Source: a virus. Taken from it: 64,000 bases of DNA. The position numbers and the translations under genes were made by a program. Below, in pieces: positions 5,431 to 14,037 of this stretch; the first letter of the stretch is position 1, and every line of letters begins with the position of its first letter. The DNA is taken from the IMG/VR virus record IMGVR_UViG_3300045257_000280, positions 1 to 64,000 of that record, one strand, 5' to 3'. Under the pieces are notes generated by a model. That model saw nothing but the letters and a program-made list of their open reading frames with translations. It had not been told where the DNA came from and did no database searches.

Positions 5431-5784
5431 TTACGCCGGGAACGCGGCGATGCGCTGCGACAGGATGCTCGAATATTCGGCCATCGCATCGAACTGCCTG
5501 CCCAAGCGCCTGCGCTCATCGTCCGGGAGGGTCTTAAAAGTCGGGTTTGTTTCGATGAAAGCTTTCAGTTTGTTGATCTTTTCGTCCAAATCCTTCTTTT
5601 CGTCCACGACTCGTTGCTGGTGCGGCTGCATTGTGGTGTCTCTCCATGGTGGGCTTCCAAGATGCCGGTGCATTCGCCCACAAATCGGGCACTGGCACGT
5701 TTCGTCCGGGAGCGCGCCCGTGATCTTAAGGTGATGATCGACGGCGCGGCCGGGAAAATCCTTTATCTGCGTTGGCTTCAACAT
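5431..5784 (-). CDS. Acb2/Tad1-type hairpin protein with N-terminal zinc-ribbon extension
   Basis: 117 residues in one frame. Residues 1-51 include a CQCPICG zinc-knuckle-like motif. Residues 52-117 (from MQPHQQRVVDEKKDLDEKI to the C-terminal YSSILSQRIAAF) closely resemble the small phage proteins called crAss001_48-related, now grouped by some databases with the Acb2/Tad1 helical-hairpin domain. An internal ATG at 5631 with GGAGAG upstream would give the usual 66-residue form. Acb2 and Tad1 bind cyclic nucleotides to block CBASS or Thoeris defence; whether this relative does so is inference. Confidence 0.6.
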   Translation of the reverse strand: MLKPTQIKDFPGRAVDHHLKITGALPDETCQCPICGRMHRHLGSPPWRDTTMQPHQQRVVDEKKDLDEKINKLKAFIETNPTFKTLPDDERRRLGRQFDAMAEYSSILSQRIAAFPA

Positions 5785-5953: not shown

Positions 5954-6463
5954 TCATATACCGCGATGCAATAGTGCCGATGTAATCAGCGCCGCGATAC
6001 CGATTGCCCCGACAATGTAGGCGCCGACTGTCGCCCAATCCTTGCGGCCCAGGTCCGCAATGCGCGCTTTTAGATCGTCGATCTTCTCGTCCAGGCTGTC
6101 GATCTGCTTGGTGAATGCGGCGCCGGCCTTGTCGATGGCAAGCGTGTTGGATTCGTTCTGCGACTTCACCGCAGCTTCGGCCGCCTTGAACGCGGCGGCG
6201 AGGGCGATGTCGCGCATGGTGAATTCGGTTTTGACACCGACGAACTTTTCTTCCAACAACTCGCGAAGGTGTTTGAGCTTGTCATCCGTCAGTTCTGGGA
6301 TTTCCTCGACGATGGCCCGCATGCGTTCTTCGTCTTTGATAAGTCCTTCAATCTGGACTTCGAAGAATTCCTTGATCTCCTTCTTCGCAAGCGCGACCGC
6401 ATCCGTAGTGAGCTTGGTCGGATCAGGAACCGGAACGGAGCCGCGTTTCTCAAGTTCGCTCAT
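5954..6463 (-). CDS. membrane-anchored coiled-coil protein
   Basis: 169 residues. Mostly charged coiled coil (about 20-140), then one hydrophobic C-terminal helix (GAYIVGAIGIAALITSALL). The tail-anchored layout suggests a membrane scaffold near the lysis proteins. Its start overlaps the upstream stop (ATGA). Confidence 0.6.
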   Translation of the reverse strand: MSELEKRGSVPVPDPTKLTTDAVALAKKEIKEFFEVQIEGLIKDEERMRAIVEEIPELTDDKLKHLRELLEEKFVGVKTEFTMRDIALAAAFKAAEAAVKSQNESNTLAIDKAGAAFTKQIDSLDEKIDDLKARIADLGRKDWATVGAYIVGAIGIAALITSALLHRGI

Positions 6464-6792
6464 CGATGCCCGTCTCGTGCCCCGTCAGAATTGCCGCCTG
6501 CTCCGCCGCCGACGCCTGTGCGGGGAAGCGAATTGAGAGATTCGAGTTGCGCACTGATCTTGGCGAGAGAGGCAATCATCTGCTTGACCTGCTCGTCCTG
6601 CGCGGCATTGTGCTTTTGAATCTCGATCACGTCGGAAGCTGCTTTATCGTACATTGGAAACTTCGCATTGGTGTACGCATAGAAGCCGCCAGTCATAAAA
6701 ATAACCGTGATAACTGGGATCAAAAGGACGTTCACCGCTGTTCCCGCGTTCCAGACGGAAGCTATAGCAGACTTTTTATTTTTCGTACCCAT
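6460..6792 (-). CDS. inner-membrane spanin-like protein
   Basis: 110 residues from the ATG at 6792. A short basic N-terminus, one membrane span (about 16-38), then an extramembrane helix (about 45-85) and a Gly-rich tail. N-in, single span and periplasmic coiled coil is the layout of i-spanins, and the gene lies in the lysis region. No matching outer-membrane lipoprotein was found, so the assignment stays tentative. Confidence 0.5.
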   Translation of the reverse strand: MGTKNKKSAIASVWNAGTAVNVLLIPVITVIFMTGGFYAYTNAKFPMYDKAASDVIEIQKHNAAQDEQVKQMIASLAKISAQLESLNSLPRTGVGGGAGGNSDGARDGHR

Positions 6793-6814
6793 ACTTAAGT
6801 CCCGGTACTTAAGT
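6793..6814. repeat. paired ACTTAAGT palindromes
   Basis: Two copies of the 8-base palindrome ACTTAAGT separated by CCCGGT, together a 22-base inverted repeat. It contains the stop codon of the permuted lipase gene and lies just upstream of the next start. Confidence 0.8.
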
Positions 6815-7475
6815 TTTGCAGCGCATACCCCGCCGCAATGGACGCCCGCGCGGCCCCGAGCGAGTGGCCGGTGAACACGACCTCGTCGGCGCCAGCGACC
6901 AGCGGCTTGATGTCGATCCACGCGTATTCCATGCCGATCAGGAAGCCGCCCCACATCGGCCCGAACGTGGCGTGGGGTACGGATGGCGCGAAGCCGACCA
7001 AATCGCGCAGCCAATCGAGCAGGCTTTTCGATCCCTGGAAAACCACATAGGCCGTATTACCGTGAACCTTGATGCCCCACTCGACACCGGCCGTGCTCTG
7101 CCGATGATCCCAATCGATAGGTGTGTCGTCGGGATAGGCATAGATGCCACGGCACAATCGCGCGCAGTCGATGTGCAGGTAATTGTCCGCCACTGCGCGA
7201 ATGCCGGCGTCGTACAAAACCATATGGTGGAAGCGAAATACTCCGAGCGGGTCATTGTCGGCGGGCTGGGCGCTGACAAATGACAATTCCGTGGGATGGA
7301 TAAAATTCAATTTCAGTGCGGGGATCGCGAACGGCAAATCCGTCACGCGGTCATGCTGCAACGGGCCGGTGCGGTTGCAGTAGCTCACGCTCTCGTCGAG
7401 CTTGGAAAGTAGCCCGGCGAACGTGGATTCGCCGGGCTTCGGTTCGCCGAATACTATGCGGCGGATGAGGGGCAT
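6795..7475 (-). CDS. class-3 lipase with circularly permuted domain order
   Basis: 226 residues from the ATG at 7475; a TTG at 7508 would add 11. Alpha/beta-hydrolase lipase elements are present but in swapped order. The part that normally follows the nucleophile comes first: RRIVFGEPKPG (about 5-15), the Asp loop HDRVTDLPF (41-49, D42) and the His segment NFIHPTEL (57-64, H60). The part that normally precedes it follows: CRGIYAYP (about 108-115), TAYVVFQGS (141-149) and finally GHSLGAARA with the Ser at 205, ending 21 residues later. All triad residues are present, so it may be active. A role in envelope lipid hydrolysis at lysis is inferred from its neighbours. Confidence 0.75.
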   Translation of the reverse strand: MPLIRRIVFGEPKPGESTFAGLLSKLDESVSYCNRTGPLQHDRVTDLPFAIPALKLNFIHPTELSFVSAQPADNDPLGVFRFHHMVLYDAGIRAVADNYLHIDCARLCRGIYAYPDDTPIDWDHRQSTAGVEWGIKVHGNTAYVVFQGSKSLLDWLRDLVGFAPSVPHATFGPMWGGFLIGMEYAWIDIKPLVAGADEVVFTGHSLGAARASIAAGYALQNLSTGT

Positions 7476-7476
7476 A

Positions 7477-7692
7477 TCACTTAAACTGAGCGCCAGCTTT
7501 GTTGGCAATATCGTGGAGCGTCATCGATATTCTGCCATCCAAAGTTTGCTCCATGCAATAGATGCAACGACCCTCTCTCCTAGTTCCGCGCCTGCCGCAG
7601 TTGCAACTGGTGGGAGCGCGGCCTTTCAGCATTTCGGGTGATCCGGTCGTCACCGGAACTCCCTTTACCGCTTTCGCGTCGTGCGGCCCCAT
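7477..7692 (-). CDS. small zinc-ribbon-like protein
   Basis: 71 residues from the ATG at 7692. CNCGRRGTRREGRCIYC in the middle is a compact Cys4-type site. The stop (7477-7479) lies one base before the ATG of the lipase gene, suggesting coupled translation. The start lies one base after the upstream stop. Function unknown. Confidence 0.6.
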   Translation of the reverse strand: MGPHDAKAVKGVPVTTGSPEMLKGRAPTSCNCGRRGTRREGRCIYCMEQTLDGRISMTLHDIANKAGAQFK

Positions 7693-7693
7693 G

Positions 7694-8500
7694 TTACAGC
7701 CCAAAATCGTAGTTCAACCCGAGCCCGTACTGCGTGCCCATGTTGGCCCCGGCATTGACCGTCAGCGGTGCGCCGTTCGTGGCGAACACGTTGCCGAACG
7801 TCATGCCCTTGACCGGGAAGGCAACCCACGCATAGGCGTCAAGCGCTCCGCCGTTGCACTTGCCCGTCGCGTCAAGCGTGCACCAGATGAAGCCCGACTT
7901 GACCATCGGGGCGAGCCCGACAGTTTGCCCGGTAGCCGCACCGAAGCGGCCATCGATGCCAAACTCGCGCAAGCCGCCGCCGACATACTGATGCGGCACG
8001 CCGACCGACACGTTGCTTGGCAGGACCGGGGTGAAGCTCGGGAACAGCGACGCGGTGCCGAGATTGGGCAGCACGGCGAAGATGCGCTGGATCAGCTCGA
8101 ACCCAACGTCGAATTCCTGCGTGGCGTGCCAGCGCTGGGCAACGAAGGCGCTGGACCCGCTGGCGCCGGGCGTGGCGGCAGCAACATTGGTGCCCTTGAT
8201 GTTCGACCAGCCGCCCTCAATCTGCACTCTCCACCATCGTTGCGGATTGGCGGACAAGTAGCCGCAGGCGCCGTCGATAGAGCCGCCAGTTGCCGTCAAA
8301 CCGCCGCTTACGAGCGACGTGGCAAACAGATTAGTGCCCGAGACATTGGACTGCGCGACATCGGCCTCAGTGCCGACGCCGCAGTACCAGGGCGAGGATG
8401 CCGGTGCGGTGAACGGTGGCGCCTTGACCGGCATATCCGCCGCCAAAGCCGGGACCGCCAGCGCAGTCAGCGCGGCGGCAAGGATGAGAGAGATTCGCAT
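7694..8500 (-). CDS. outer-membrane beta-barrel (opacity/Omp25-like) protein
   Basis: 268 residues. A clear signal peptide (MRISLILAAALTALAVPALA) is followed by ADMPVKAPP, the mature N-terminus typical of Rhizobiales opacity-type porins. The body alternates short hydrophobic strands and Gly-rich turns and ends in YGLGLNYDFGL, a beta-barrel-style terminal strand. AAAGGAGC lies before the ATG. It sits between the holin and lipase genes and probably alters the host outer membrane (superinfection exclusion, stability or receptor change). It may have been acquired from a host. Confidence 0.75.
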   Translation of the reverse strand: MRISLILAAALTALAVPALAADMPVKAPPFTAPASSPWYCGVGTEADVAQSNVSGTNLFATSLVSGGLTATGGSIDGACGYLSANPQRWWRVQIEGGWSNIKGTNVAAATPGASGSSAFVAQRWHATQEFDVGFELIQRIFAVLPNLGTASLFPSFTPVLPSNVSVGVPHQYVGGGLREFGIDGRFGAATGQTVGLAPMVKSGFIWCTLDATGKCNGGALDAYAWVAFPVKGMTFGNVFATNGAPLTVNAGANMGTQYGLGLNYDFGL

Positions 8501-8581: not shown

Positions 8582-8905
8582 TCAGGATTTCGTTGCCTGC
8601 ACGGGAGCTGGGGTCGCAAGCGCTGCCCCAACGGGAACCGCCTGAGCGACATTGACGGCCGCAACCGTCGTGCTGCGGTTCGTGACGCGCTTGAGCGCCG
8701 CCGCGACCTGCTGCTGCCCGGTCTTTTGCCACCATGACCAGCCGGCGCCGACCGCCCAAACCGCGATGCCGCTGCCGATGGTGACGAAGCTGCTCTCGTC
8801 GGCGCCGGGATGAATTGCGCCGACAGTTACGAGCGAGCCAGCGATGCCCGTCAGCACATGACGCGCGGTGAGACCGGCGACGAGTTCGAGTGTTGAATCT
8901 GCCAT
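8582..8905 (-). CDS. holin (Pam3-gp28-like family)
   Basis: 107 residues. N-terminal RHVLTGIAGSLVTVGAI, then a second hydrophobic helix ending GAGWSWWQKTG, matching the small Pam3-gp28-type putative holins. A variable Ala-rich tail follows. Two spans and a position just downstream of two endolysin genes support a role in inner-membrane permeabilisation. Confidence 0.75.
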   Translation of the reverse strand: MADSTLELVAGLTARHVLTGIAGSLVTVGAIHPGADESSFVTIGSGIAVWAVGAGWSWWQKTGQQQVAAALKRVTNRSTTVAAVNVAQAVPVGAALATPAPVQATKS

Positions 8906-8914
8906 GTTAGGCTC

Positions 8915-9400
8915 CTACGGATGAATTCTGGCTGCTTGGACGTGCATAGCATCAATCGATCCAGCCGACCAGTCGCCGCCCCAAATCCACCCCTCGTCCT
9001 TGAAGGCTTTGATGAGTGGGCTGTCGTCGGTGAACAAATGGTGCTGCGAATGCTGAGAGTTGTCGGAAGCATCCCAGTCTATTGCGGCGGCGAAGGCGTG
9101 CATCGACATGATGTGACCACCTCGGATCGGCCGGAAATTATAACTGCCGTCGTATTGATCGTACCGCAGTTGCTTGATTTTGTCCGCGTCGTGGCCAACG
9201 CCATCCCACACGACGTTGAGAACGCGGGTCAGGCTATCGGCGCATTTCTTGTTGATAAGAATGCTACCGATGTGTTCCGTTCCCATAAATAGAGGCCACG
9301 GACAAACAACCCGTGTGGTATTTGACTCCATCCATCCAGGTTGAGACGGGTCGCCATAGAATTCGACGCAGGCGTTTTGCAGCGGCCATGTGTTCATCAT
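8915..9400 (-). CDS. endolysin, M15-family peptidase
   Basis: 161 residues from the ATG at 9400, which overlaps the upstream stop (ATGA). The zinc-peptidase motif is read in SMHAFAAAIDWD (His101, Asp109), then GWIWGGDW and DAMHVQ with His153. This is the M15 (VanY / L-Ala-D-Glu peptidase) arrangement used by phage endolysins to cut the peptide part of peptidoglycan. No signal peptide, so export depends on the holin. Confidence 0.8.
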   Translation of the reverse strand: MMNTWPLQNACVEFYGDPSQPGWMESNTTRVVCPWPLFMGTEHIGSILINKKCADSLTRVLNVVWDGVGHDADKIKQLRYDQYDGSYNFRPIRGGHIMSMHAFAAAIDWDASDNSQHSQHHLFTDDSPLIKAFKDEGWIWGGDWSAGSIDAMHVQAARIHP

Positions 9401-9951
9401 TTGCTCACCATAGCGATACATTGTGCATCAACACGTTCGCGCCTGGCACTCCAACCGCGGCCGTATTTGGCCCATCCCGGCTGCGTGCGTTTTTTAGCGA
9501 TCCACTGTTCTCCGATAGCGACGATCATTTCCTTCGGATCTTTCGCTACGATAGCCGCCAGAAGCTGGTCATCAAACTTGCCGGTGTGGGGCATTCTGTC
9601 GACACATAGTTCAAGGAGGTTGACACCGCCGTTTGGGCCTAGATTAGTGAACACGTCGGCACATCGCACATCCACACCGGACGGCAGTTCGTCAAATCTC
9701 ATCTTCGGCAACACCCATTGCGAGTAAAATTCGACGGCCTGATCCTGGGTCAGATTGACGATGTCCTGCACGGTCGCAAGCGGGCGGCCTCTGGACTTGT
9801 TGAAATCCGTTAGCGCATCAACTGATACGCCAAACCGCGAAGCGCCGCCGGGCTCGCCATGGCCGGGCGGCGTGCCGGGAGGATTCTGATTTAATTCCGG
9901 CCCTTCTGATTCAAGGATGCCATTGATAGCGATGATTTCATTGGCCTGCAT
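9397..9951 (-). CDS. endolysin, GH108-type N-acetylmuramidase
   Basis: 184 residues. The N-terminal ILESEG motif (catalytic Glu about residue 16), then DPGGA-like EPGGASRFGVS, and an LTQDQAVEFYSQWVL helix, fit glycosyl hydrolase family 108. A C-terminal helical region with WIAKKRTQPG matches the peptidoglycan-binding part often fused to it. A 14-residue Pro/Gly insertion sits between the Glu and the GGA motif. Together with the M15 enzyme the phage attacks both glycan and peptide. Confidence 0.75.
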   Translation of the reverse strand: MQANEIIAINGILESEGPELNQNPPGTPPGHGEPGGASRFGVSVDALTDFNKSRGRPLATVQDIVNLTQDQAVEFYSQWVLPKMRFDELPSGVDVRCADVFTNLGPNGGVNLLELCVDRMPHTGKFDDQLLAAIVAKDPKEMIVAIGEQWIAKKRTQPGWAKYGRGWSARRERVDAQCIAMVSK

Positions 9952-10001: not shown

Positions 10002-11912
10002 TCATGGCAGCACCCTTATGGTCAGCGACACGTCGGCAGTGGCCGCCGCGCCTTCGACATTTGTCACGCGGAAATAAAGCGTGTTGGGAGTAGCGAGCGA
10101 CGCCGCAACAGCCGAGATCGTGGATACGCCAGCGGTGGCCTGTGCATTATTGGCGGTCTGATCCGCGGTAGCTGAAACCGTAATCGCGGTGCCGCTCGCA
10201 AGCAACGCTTGTCCGCCACCGGCTGTCGCCGTGAACACGCCAAACTGCGCAGTTGTCAGGCTGTGGCTGGCATTTGAGATATTGGCGAAGTGCAGCAAAA
10301 TCCGCGTAAACCCGGCAGGCATCGTGAAGGCGAGCGCGGTGTCGGCGATGGCGTTGAAATTTACTGCCAGCGCCGTGGCAGTAATGTACGCCTGCTCAAG
10401 ACTCGCCTGCGCCTGTGCGACTGTTAGATCAATTGGCGCGGCTGGGCTGCCGGTGTTGTTGCCCTTGAAGGTATTGGCCGCCATATTGGCCAGCTTCGCA
10501 TTCGCGACCGAAGCGGCTTGCAGGTTATAGGCTGCGGTTTGGAGATCGCCAGCATCCGTCTGCGTTCCTTGAGTAAGAGATGACGCCACATTGCCGGGGA
10601 AGAATGTATCGACAGCAATCTGTCCGGTGTAAATATAACTGTTGAGAGCCACTACTCGTTGGCCCGTTGTTCCAGCAACACCAGCACCAGAAATTGTAGC
10701 GCTGCCAAAGTTTGCAGTGGCGTCAGTCAAGAAAAGAAATTCGCTCCCCCAAACTACCGCAGGATTGATTGTAATAGTTCCAGTCGCGACTAGATTTGCT
10801 CCACTCGTAACTGCGGCGTGAATTGCAATGTTTGAGTTGATTGTTTCGTTACCAAGATTGGTGACGGCACCCAATGTTATGCTGATGTGTCTGCCGTTCG
10901 TGCCCCACGATCCCCACACGACGTTGTTTATGTCGGCGATGGAAAATTGTGCCGCGGTAACGCCGAAGGAATTATTACCCCCGGTAAGAGTTACGCAATT
11001 AAGTGAGAGTTCCCCACCGTCTTTTACGAAAATTCCAAGATCATTTGCAGGTATGGCAAGAACAACGTTTGCAGGCGAACCACAATTGCCGGTAACTGTG
11101 GTTAGGATTGAAGAACTGCCGCCCTCATTTCCTTGTATAGAACAAAGCGCATTATGAGAATCGACACTATTATAGGTGCCATCCGCAAGAATTATATTTA
11201 GATTAGCGCGGGTAAGAAATGTCGCGATGGAATCTCTAAGACTACACGCCCCCTTCAACGTACACGGCGTTCCAGAAGCCATGCAGGTGTTGTTGGTATC
11301 GTTACCGGTCGGGCTGGCGTAGAGGTTGAGGCCGCCGGCTGGGGCGAGTGGAACGCCGCTATCTTTCAGCAAAACACCTGTCGTGCTGTCCCACAGCGGA
11401 ATGTTGCCGACAACCGACGAGTTCGGCCCGTACACGATCCCGGTCGGCGAATTGCCGCAATCCTTCAGCAGCGTGCCGGCTGTGTTATTCCAGCAAGCGA
11501 AATTACCCGAGATCGAAGAAACCGGCCCCACCACCCCCGAGGTCGAGAACGGGAATTGGTAGATCACACCGTTGAGATTCAGACTGAGCGGCAGCGCCGC
11601 GTCGGTGCCGAAATTCTGCACCGTGATGGTGGCGCCGCCCGCGTCGGTCGCGCCTAGGCAAATTTTCTGGGATCCGGCAGCCGAAGATAAGGCGCTCCAC
11701 GCGCAGATTGTTTGACCTTGGCCTACCGTGCCGATCGAGGTGAGAAATGGAATCGCAGCCGTGCCGCAATCTTGCGCGATACCGTTAGTTGTGACACACC
11801 AAGCGTGGGTTGGTGTCACGTTCCCCGATTGTTTGATGGCCGTCCCAGTCTGCGCCGAAGCTACGCAGCAGCTCGCCAATAAGGCGACGGTGACGCTAAG
11901 GCAGCGGTTCAT
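10002..11912 (-). CDS. fibre/spike-like protein with signal peptide and beta-helix region
   Basis: 636 residues. It begins with a Sec-type signal peptide ([21 protein letters not shown]). The motif [16 protein letters not shown] is shared in form with the neighbouring protein. Residues about 200-470 are strand-rich with a repetitive right-handed beta-helix character, then a helical neck. The last 115 residues are a domain shared with the next two fibre-like proteins. Likely receptor-binding or surface-polysaccharide-binding. An export signal on a virion fibre is unusual. Confidence 0.65.
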
Positions 11913-12387
11913 AAAAACAGCTCACATTCGCCGTCGCCGCGACGCCTTGCGCCGTCTGCGTCCGAAAATAGATCGTGGTGTCGTTCAGCGCAATCGTGTT
12001 CTGATTCACGATCGTCAGCGACTGCATATTGTTGTTGGTGTCGCCCAAATTGGTGCTGATCGTACAGGCAGTCGCGCTCGCCACAATATTGACACCCGCG
12101 GCGGCGGCCTGCGTGTAGACGCTACAAGTTGCGGTGGTCAAAGTGCCTGATGCGCCCGAGATCAGGATCCGGTTGATGCGGTAGCGGGTGAACCCGGCTG
12201 GCAGATTGATGGAGATCGGGTTGTCGGTATTTGCGGCATTGAAATTAACGCCCAGAATCGTCGATTGGAGCTGCGAGTAGGTGTTGGCGAATGAAAAACC
12301 GGCGTCGCCAATTACTCCATCGGTTACAGCAGCCATCAAATGGCCGGGAGTGACGCTGCCGGATTGAAGAACCGATTGGGTGCTCAC
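11896..12387 (-). CDS. short fibre-like protein, GTG start
   Basis: 163 residues. N-terminal [17 protein letters not shown] motif, then the C-terminal domain shared with its neighbours ([19 protein letters not shown] to the end). No signal peptide. Overlaps the next gene by 17 bases. It looks like a minimal version of the fibre proteins around it. Confidence 0.65.
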
Positions 12388-12431
12388 GGCACCCCCGGCA
12401 TCAACTGCACCACGATGTTTTCGAGGGTCAT
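12384..12431 (-). CDS. possible 15-residue peptide
   Basis: Frame [15 protein letters not shown], whose stop overlaps the GTG of the next gene (GTGA). The composition looks like coding sequence and the overlap suggests coupling. It is too short to be sure. Confidence 0.3.
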   Translation of the reverse strand: MTLENIVVQLMPGVP

Positions 12432-12445
12432 GGTGTCGGTCGCCT

Positions 12446-13606
12446 TTAGCTGAGTGGGAGGATTTGTATAGTCACATTCGCGGTAGCCGCTGATCCTTGA
12501 GCATTTTGCACCCGAAAATAGATAGGCGACACGTTGTAAGACGTTGCCGATGCGCCAACAATTCCTGGCGCCTGCGCATTATTCGTTGTGTTTTCTGACG
12601 CGCTCGAAAGCGTAACCGCTGTTCCCGATGCTACCATCGCGGTCCCCGCCCCACCCGCAGCAGAAAAAACACCAAATGTTGCGGTTGTCAGCGAAGCGCT
12701 CGCGCCAGAGATTATGACGAGGTTTAACCGATAGCGCGTGAAACCAGTCGGCAGCGTGATCGTGATCGGATTGTCGGTATTGGCTGAATTGAAATCGACT
12801 CCTGAAATCTTAAACAACAGCGTGCTAAGCGCGAGATTCGCCTGCGCCCCCGCAGTCGTCGTCGCGCCTGTGCCGCCGTTGGCGATAGGTAACGCGACAT
12901 TCGGATTGACCGAGAATTTCGTATAAGTCAGCGGATCGGTGCCGACCGTAGCAACCGCCGAAGTCAGCAGCCATGACGTAGTGCCGTTCACCGTGCCGTT
13001 AACGACCGGAATGGCCCCGGTATTGTTGATATCGCTCGGCGCATCGTAATCGAGCGCGCGGGTCAGGATCGGCGGCAGGATGCCGGTCTGCAACTGCGTG
13101 ACGTAATAGACGCCGTTGAACGCACCGGACGGCGATTGGGTATCGTTCTTAATCAGGACGCGCTGATTGAGCGCCGTGAAAGTGAAGCCATCGACAGTAA
13201 ATGCGGTATTGACAGAGCCAGTGAAGAACGCGCCGATCCCGGCAGCGCCGTTGTTATAGGTCAGCCCGCTGGTGTCCGAGGCTTGCGTGGTCGCGGCTTG
13301 GACGGCGACGGCAGGGTTGACGCCCGCGATGGCGTTCGCGACCGCCGTGGTTGTAAATGACGTGGTCGCGATTTGAGTGGTATTGGTGCCCGCCGCAGCC
13401 GTTGCGGCGGTAGGAGCGCCAGTTAGCCCGACCGACGCTTTGATTGTCGGATTTGGAAACGTACCCGTCAAATCGCCACCGGCTGCGCCCGTAGTGCCGC
13501 CGCTAACCGCATTTGGCACGCCCATGCCAGATTGGTTAGGAACTTGCGCGTTAGCTGGCGCAAAAAATGCCGAGCCTACAAATAGAAAAAATCGCCGAGC
13601 GATCAT
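12446..13606 (-). CDS. tail-fibre-like protein with signal peptide
   Basis: 386 residues from the ATG at 13606, which overlaps the upstream stop (ATGA). MIARRFFLFVGSAFFAPANAQ looks like a signal peptide. Typical phage fibre motifs follow: GGDLTGTFPNPTI, AAGTNTTQIATTSF, and PIANGGTGATTTAGA before the C-terminal domain. The last 115 residues match those of the two following fibre proteins. Confidence 0.7.
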   Translation of the reverse strand: MIARRFFLFVGSAFFAPANAQVPNQSGMGVPNAVSGGTTGAAGGDLTGTFPNPTIKASVGLTGAPTAATAAAGTNTTQIATTSFTTTAVANAIAGVNPAVAVQAATTQASDTSGLTYNNGAAGIGAFFTGSVNTAFTVDGFTFTALNQRVLIKNDTQSPSGAFNGVYYVTQLQTGILPPILTRALDYDAPSDINNTGAIPVVNGTVNGTTSWLLTSAVATVGTDPLTYTKFSVNPNVALPIANGGTGATTTAGAQANLALSTLLFKISGVDFNSANTDNPITITLPTGFTRYRLNLVIISGASASLTTATFGVFSAAGGAGTAMVASGTAVTLSSASENTTNNAQAPGIVGASATSYNVSPIYFRVQNAQGSAATANVTIQILPLS

Positions 13607-14037
13607 TTCGCGTACTCGGCATCGATGGTGGCGGTTCCGGTCTGCTGGATGAATCTCAAATTCGCCAACGTGGTGGCACCCGAGAATGCCGCGCATTGCC
13701 CCGCCGCTATGGGCATCCCCACCGAGGAAGTTGGCGTCGTGGTGCCATCCCAGGTCCATCGCACTCCTTGGGTCTCGGCGCACACCACCGCGTAGGTGGC
13801 GCCAGCCGGGATCGTCAAAGCAGTTGAGGACACGACTCCCACGGCGTTTTGTGAGGGTGTGAGGGGTGTGTAGGCGTAAGGCGCCCCACCCGTCACGGCG
13901 AGCGGTACGCTCGTGGCACACGGTGCCCAATCGTTTGGTGCCGCCAGGCCGGTGGGGCAAAAGAGTCGAACGCTGGCCTGGGCGTGCGCAAGACTTGGAG
14001 CGAGCAACAAACAAAGAAGTGCGAGAATCCTGATCAT
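13603..14037 (-). CDS. secreted-looking beta-rich structural protein
   Basis: 144 residues with a signal peptide (MIRILALLCLLLAPSLAHAQ). The strand-rich body contains ALTIPAGATYAVVCAETQGVRWT and a turn with TTPTSSVGMPIAAGQC, a pattern I associate with small phage proteins encoded near fibres. The start overlaps the upstream stop. Probably part of the fibre cluster. Confidence 0.6.
   Translation of the reverse strand: MIRILALLCLLLAPSLAHAQASVRLFCPTGLAAPNDWAPCATSVPLAVTGGAPYAYTPLTPSQNAVGVVSSTALTIPAGATYAVVCAETQGVRWTWDGTTTPTSSVGMPIAAGQCAAFSGATTLANLRFIQQTGTATIDAEYAK

Follow-up and report, generated by a model that had tools for sequence, protein, structure and literature searches.

A phage class-3 lipase that is very probably a natural circular permutant is encoded in the window analysed here (64,000 bases, part of a 65,376-base virus record). 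The two halves of its chain are swapped, and the ordinary fold with one active site would be kept. The permuted form was inherited across viral lineages, probably originated by duplication, and would serve as an esterase or phospholipase during lysis.

Gene structure and motif order

The lipase gene lies on the minus strand and encodes a protein that starts with MPLIRRIVFGEPKPG (MPLIRRIV...) and ends with GHSLGAARASIAAGYALQNLSTGT. The gene, its predicted parts and the predicted catalytic residues are as follows.

6795..7475, minus strand: circularly permuted class-3 lipase gene (ATG at 7475, stop at 6795-6797, 226 aa), based on the ORF, Pfam Lipase_3, collinear homologs in L001, L006 and L011, and dN/dS
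7188..7475, minus strand: predicted ancestral C-terminal half (residues 1-96), with strand b6 RRIVFGEP, the Asp loop and the His helix; positions ~118-215 of the unpermuted profile
6798..7187, minus strand: predicted ancestral N-terminal half (residues 97-226), with helix ARLCRGIY, VVFQGSKSLLDWLRDL, and the nucleophile elbow GHSLG with its helix; profile positions ~5-118, Pfam Lipase_3 positions 1-87
7179..7211, minus strand: junction of the old C- and N-termini (residues 89-99, DAGIRAVADNY), placed by rotation scan; short turn between model helices H85-95 and H99-111
6861..6863, minus strand: Ser205, predicted nucleophile in GHSLG, invariant in both forms and aligned to GHSLG of solved class-3 lipases
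7350..7352, minus strand: Asp42, predicted catalytic Asp in QHDRVTDLP, invariant in both forms and aligned to the Asp of TNDPVPKLP in 1tia/5ch8
7227..7229, minus strand: His83, predicted catalytic His (first His of FHHMVLY), invariant in permuted and unpermuted relatives

The likely start of the lipase is ATG 7475. A previous reading of this DNA from sequence only had opened the frame at TTG 7508, and this start was rejected, since the residues encoded between TTG 7508 and ATG 7475 are not common to the relatives; these extra 11 residues also overlap the upstream gene. In the related record L001, the lipase also begins with MPLIRR, and this start overlaps with the stop of the gene ahead of it.

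Read along the ORF, the lipase motifs follow the order FGEPKPG, HDRVTDLP, NFIHPTEL, FHHMVLY and, near the C-terminus, GHSLGAARA, so that the swapped order described in the sequence-only reading was found again on re-reading. The catalytic order is Asp42, His83, Ser205, which differs from the standard order of Lipase_3 (nucleophile, Asp, His). By its sequence, the window lipase would thus be classed as a homologous permutant and not as a standard member of Lipase_3. ACTTAAGT occurs twice at 6793-6814, the copies lying 14 bases apart, at the 3′ end of the lipase gene and just ahead of the next start codon; this pair is absent in the relatives.

Homology of the exchanged halves

Pfam Lipase_3 (cut-off 22 bits) matched the native protein with 38.6 bits in its second part only, over profile positions 1-87 of 140. 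When the halves were rejoined, the score rose to 48.4 bits and the match extended to profile position 137 of 140. The same gain was found in the three other permuted proteins (3/3), and PHROG 21992, a phage esterase/lipase family, also gained in score on rejoining in all four (4/4), with the matches reaching further to the ends of the profiles. In sequence comparison with solved structures, only the GHSLG part of the native chain was matched (E = 0.0022), whereas for the rejoined chain the match to fungal class-3 lipases continued through the FGEPKPG strand (E = 3.9e-5).

The profile for the rotation scan was built from unpermuted proteins alone, namely 13 phage relatives and the P-SSM2 lipase. 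The best domain of the native window protein reached 85.9 bits over profile positions 5-118. The score climbed steadily to a maximum of 171.2 bits with the start at residue 99-100, as a single domain over profile positions 6-215, and start residues 95-103 formed a plateau within 2 bits. L001, L006 and L011 behaved in the same way, with best starts at residues 96-101. As a control, shuffling the first 90 residues of the window protein before rejoining gave at most 92.7 bits. The increase from 85.9 to 171.2 bits in one near-full-length match supports the earlier proposal that joining the ends would give an ordinary lipase.

The first 90 residues alone scored 72.4 bits against the unpermuted profile, and the C-terminal halves of the unpermuted relatives share 33-44% identity with the window protein, which is in agreement with the previous view that its N-terminal half corresponds to the C-terminal half of a lipase. 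The aligned parts of the unpermuted N-terminal halves share 28-40% identity with it. Each half is homologous to the opposite half of the relatives, without large loss or overlap. Against a profile built from both forms, the native pieces cover positions 123-217 and then 3-125, and thus almost nothing was lost or duplicated.

Predicted catalytic residues

Ser205, Asp42 and His83 would form one active site. The sequence-only reading had taken His60 as the catalytic His; however, H60 is replaced by Gln in L011 and by Arg in L027, while H83 is invariant, and H60 was rejected since it varies among relatives. H84 also varies among relatives. The counterpart of H60 in the Penicillium lipase is the YVH segment, which we take not to be the catalytic His of that family. 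The catalytic His is almost certainly H83, an assignment that rests on conservation and position, as the alignment with PDB sequences does not extend to the His helix.

Predicted structure

AlphaFold2 predicted the window lipase as one domain with pLDDT 92.7 and pTM 0.91, and all five models ranged from 91.6 to 92.7. The input was alignment A13, with the four permuted proteins and the separate halves of 13 unpermuted relatives. Alignments A11 and A12 were left out of structure prediction, as short N-terminal pieces had been misplaced by MAFFT, and the model was poor (pLDDT 53.8) when the alignment consisted of only three permuted sequences. Neither this prediction nor the comparison of the N-terminal half with the family, the two refuting checks suggested by the earlier reading, spoke against the permutation, and the confident single domain indicates that the permuted chain is compatible with a lipase fold. 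Because the unpermuted relatives entered as separate halves, the model speaks for compatibility of the fold and not for activity.

In the model, the nucleophile helix (206-224) and strand 3-9 flank the break. No linker was added where the old termini are fused, and the junction is about as long as the free termini of the unpermuted relatives.

A Foldseek search against the PDB placed the Rhizomucor miehei lipase first, with probability 0.99 and ~110 columns aligned, and no collinear full-length match was found in the PDB. Several class-3 lipases were partially matched among viral models. Such partial matches are expected, because sequential structure alignment cannot span a permutation. The lipase fold is predicted to be kept in the permutant.

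Permuted and unpermuted relatives

Permuted relatives were found in the viral contigs L001 and L002 (two records with the same lipase sequence, 67-68% identity), L006 (57%) and L011 (57%). The window protein and these three other divergent viral lineages are collinear, with a common swapped order and break (57-68% identity). Unpermuted phage relatives comprise 13 full-length proteins (L016, L020-L029, L032 and L034) and L035, which is truncated at the contig end. L016 was found earlier, and all others came from a search with the C-terminal half. Both forms are therefore present in related phages, a point that the sequence-only reading had proposed to check. The unpermuted L016 protein showed a weak match to the P-SSM2 lipase YP_214431.1. 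Pattern-based scans detected no relatives in bacterial genome contigs with the patterns applied, tblastn of the permuted proteins gave no match above chance in named phages and plasmids, and no DNA-level relatives of window positions 1-25000 were found among named phages. No second lipase copy was found in the genomes of the permuted lipases.

In the maximum-likelihood tree of the rejoined proteins, the four permuted lipases form one clade with support 100/100. The same clade was recovered in the trees of each half (support 98/98 and 91/93). Because the deep branches among the unpermuted relatives are poorly resolved, no sister lineage of the permuted clade emerged from the trees. Among the permuted genes, dN/dS was 0.18-0.31 where computable, and third codon positions are the most divergent. 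The permuted genes are under purifying selection.

In L034, the unpermuted lipase (L034:2921-4273) is fused behind an N-terminal domain of ~227 residues. This domain has no Pfam or PHROG match, and by eye it resembles the N-terminal part of the endolysin-like protein L006:2725-3609.

Alternative explanations

A misjoined contig could mimic a permuted gene, and a single metagenomic-type virus record could carry such a misjoin. The probability of this assembly artefact is practically negligible, and it was rejected because the arrangement occurs independently in diverged sequences: four other records, from three diverged lineages at 57-68% protein identity, have the same order and break. In addition, the reading frame is continuous and purifying selection acts across both halves. 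The gene could also be a chimera of half-genes from different lipase paralogs, or a decayed and non-functional remnant; in favour of this, no intact unpermuted gene that could have been its source turned up in the genomes concerned. Nevertheless, the halves meet at matching profile positions with nearly no gap or overlap (~123-217 and ~3-125), the tree of each half contains a single permuted clade, the Ser, Asp and His positions are kept, and dN/dS is 0.18-0.31, all of which makes a chimera or remnant very improbable. The half-trees gave no clear placement of the two halves with different unpermuted lineages, their deep branches being poorly resolved.

In a segment-swapped (interlocked) dimer, the ordinary fold would be rebuilt only between two chains. 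Permuted proteins can dimerise, and for the engineered CalB-cp283, structural studies are reported to suggest dimerisation (PMC8540959). For the window lipase such a dimer is highly unlikely, given the confident monomer prediction (pTM 0.91) and the short turn that joins the old termini between two confident helices. A natural permutant with an ordinary lipase domain is the preferred explanation.

Origin of the permutation

The ancestral phage gene of this permutant would have had the ordinary order of N-helix, b-strands, GHSLG, FGEPKPG, Asp loop and His helix. Its ends would have been fused, and the chain reopened where the nucleophile helix leads into the next strand. The result would be a chain with Asp42 and His83 first and Ser205 last, which is predicted to form an ordinary alpha/beta-hydrolase domain still. 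At least four diverged lineages of viruses inherited the rearranged gene and kept it under purifying selection.

Circular permutation is usually proposed to arise by tandem duplication in frame, after which both outer halves are lost, and this is probably the route taken here. Tandem duplication with trimming had already been suggested in the sequence-only reading, and it is plausible, but no duplicated remnant was found in any of the four permuted loci (4/4). No half-copy or second copy was detected in these loci, and a six-frame profile search of the flanking DNA gave chance-level scores; an old duplication could still account for loci free of remnants. The word TTAAGT at both gene ends, previously regarded as a scar, was rejected as a trace of recombination, since such sharing is at chance level and the gene ends of the three permuted relatives lack TTAAGT. 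When 120-base stretches of this window were paired at random, the longest common word averaged 7.1 bases, and 96% of the pairs shared a word of at least 6 bases.

Comparison with known lipases and permutants

Like the class-3 lipases (PF01764; Rhizomucor miehei 3tgl, Penicillium 1tia), the window lipase possesses a GHSLG elbow, an FGEPKPG/GxPRVG strand, an Asp loop and a downstream His, a likeness detected by sequence and by fold. In contrast to the fungal class-3 lipases, its halves are exchanged and it is shorter (226 aa). PHROG 21992 'esterase/lipase' and the unpermuted phage relatives are homologous over the whole length to the rejoined window lipase, and the unpermuted relatives have the same three invariant catalytic positions as the permuted lipases. 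They differ in their ordinary order, and the permuted four form a separate clade.

The order of type 2 PHA depolymerases is a circular permutation. In these enzymes (for example that of Penicillium funiculosum, PDB 2d80), the oxyanion hole is C-terminal to the triad (PMC2666664). Like the window lipase, they are natural alpha/beta-hydrolases with an exchanged order; however, they belong to another family with another break, and the oxyanion-hole part is located at the end, whereas in the window lipase the Asp/His half is located at the front. In a recent classification of alpha/beta-hydrolases, the passages found describe permutation of peripheral strands only (PMC11878206). Engineered circular permutants of Candida antarctica lipase B (cp283, PDB 3ICV) and of Yarrowia lipolytica Lip8p are reported to retain activity (PMC5343024, PMC8540959). 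The kind of rearrangement in an alpha/beta-hydrolase lipase is the same as in the window lipase, but the engineered proteins are man-made with other break points, and the window lipase is natural and inherited.

A literature search, with most subscription papers outside its scope, retrieved no report of a natural class-3 lipase permutant. We incline, by a modest degree, to regard this as the first recognised natural circular permutation of a class-3 lipase: an enzyme predicted to be active, with the nucleophile elbow near its C-terminus, fixed in a phage clade, possibly since the free ends now next to the nucleophile helix alter activation or membrane action in lysis. Permuted lipases are best known from engineering, and the window lipase would be a natural counterpart of the protein engineers' permutation trick, present in a virus of bacteria and in at least three relatives. 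To our knowledge, few natural circular permutants have a closely related sister group that is unpermuted. As both forms occur in related phages at ~40% identity, effects on folding, activity and lysis are directly comparable. Similar permutants are probably annotated as truncated lipases, because standard profile searches see only one half.

Gene neighbourhood and probable role in lysis

The following genes were identified close to the lipase.

9397..9951, minus strand: GH108-type endolysin (Pfam PF05838, E = 1.9e-7; PHROG 315 endolysin, E = 7.4e-15)
8915..9421, minus strand: M15 peptidase-type endolysin (Pfam PF13539, E = 1.6e-9; PHROG 17001 endolysin, E = 1.4e-22)
8582..8905, minus strand: probable holin (Pfam PF23987, 24.6 bits, below the cut-off of 27)
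7694-8500, minus strand: outer-membrane-like protein with a signal-peptide-like start (ADMPVKAPP...EADVAQSNVSGTNLFATS)
7477-7704, minus strand: small cysteine-rich protein, upstream of the lipase
6460..6792, minus strand: small membrane protein, possible Rz-like spanin (PHROG 739, weak, E = 0.0036), starting directly after the lipase stop

In the direction of transcription, both endolysins, the holin candidate, and the outer-membrane-like and cysteine-rich proteins are encoded upstream of the lipase, and the spanin-like gene (6460-6792) follows directly downstream. The endolysins, the probable holin and the possible spanin close by fit the lysis cassette mentioned in the sequence-only reading. 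Lysis-related genes also accompany the permuted relatives: a GH108 endolysin is located upstream of the L001 lipase, an endolysin-like gene with a peptidoglycan-binding domain upstream of the L006 lipase, and an M15 peptidase downstream of the L011 lipase. Since the lipase sits among endolysin, holin and spanin-like genes, some of them weakly assigned, our best guess is that it would act on lipids of the envelope during host lysis, most likely as an esterase or a phospholipase.

The outer-membrane-like protein is conserved near the permuted lipase both in the window (7694-8500, minus strand) and in L001 (L001:4189-5001), with no Pfam or PHROG match. Directly upstream of the permuted lipase of L006, L006:3606-4166 encodes a possible second alpha/beta-hydrolase-like protein with a GASLGAG motif and no significant family match. 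Elsewhere in the window, 5431-5784 (minus strand) encodes a protein with a crAss001_48-related domain (PF21825, E = 2.7e-21). Three successive ORFs at 10002-14014 (minus strand; 636, 163 and 522 aa) possess similar C-terminal domains of ~120 residues ([26 protein letters not shown]-like), which suggests duplicated C-terminal domains of the tail-fibre type.
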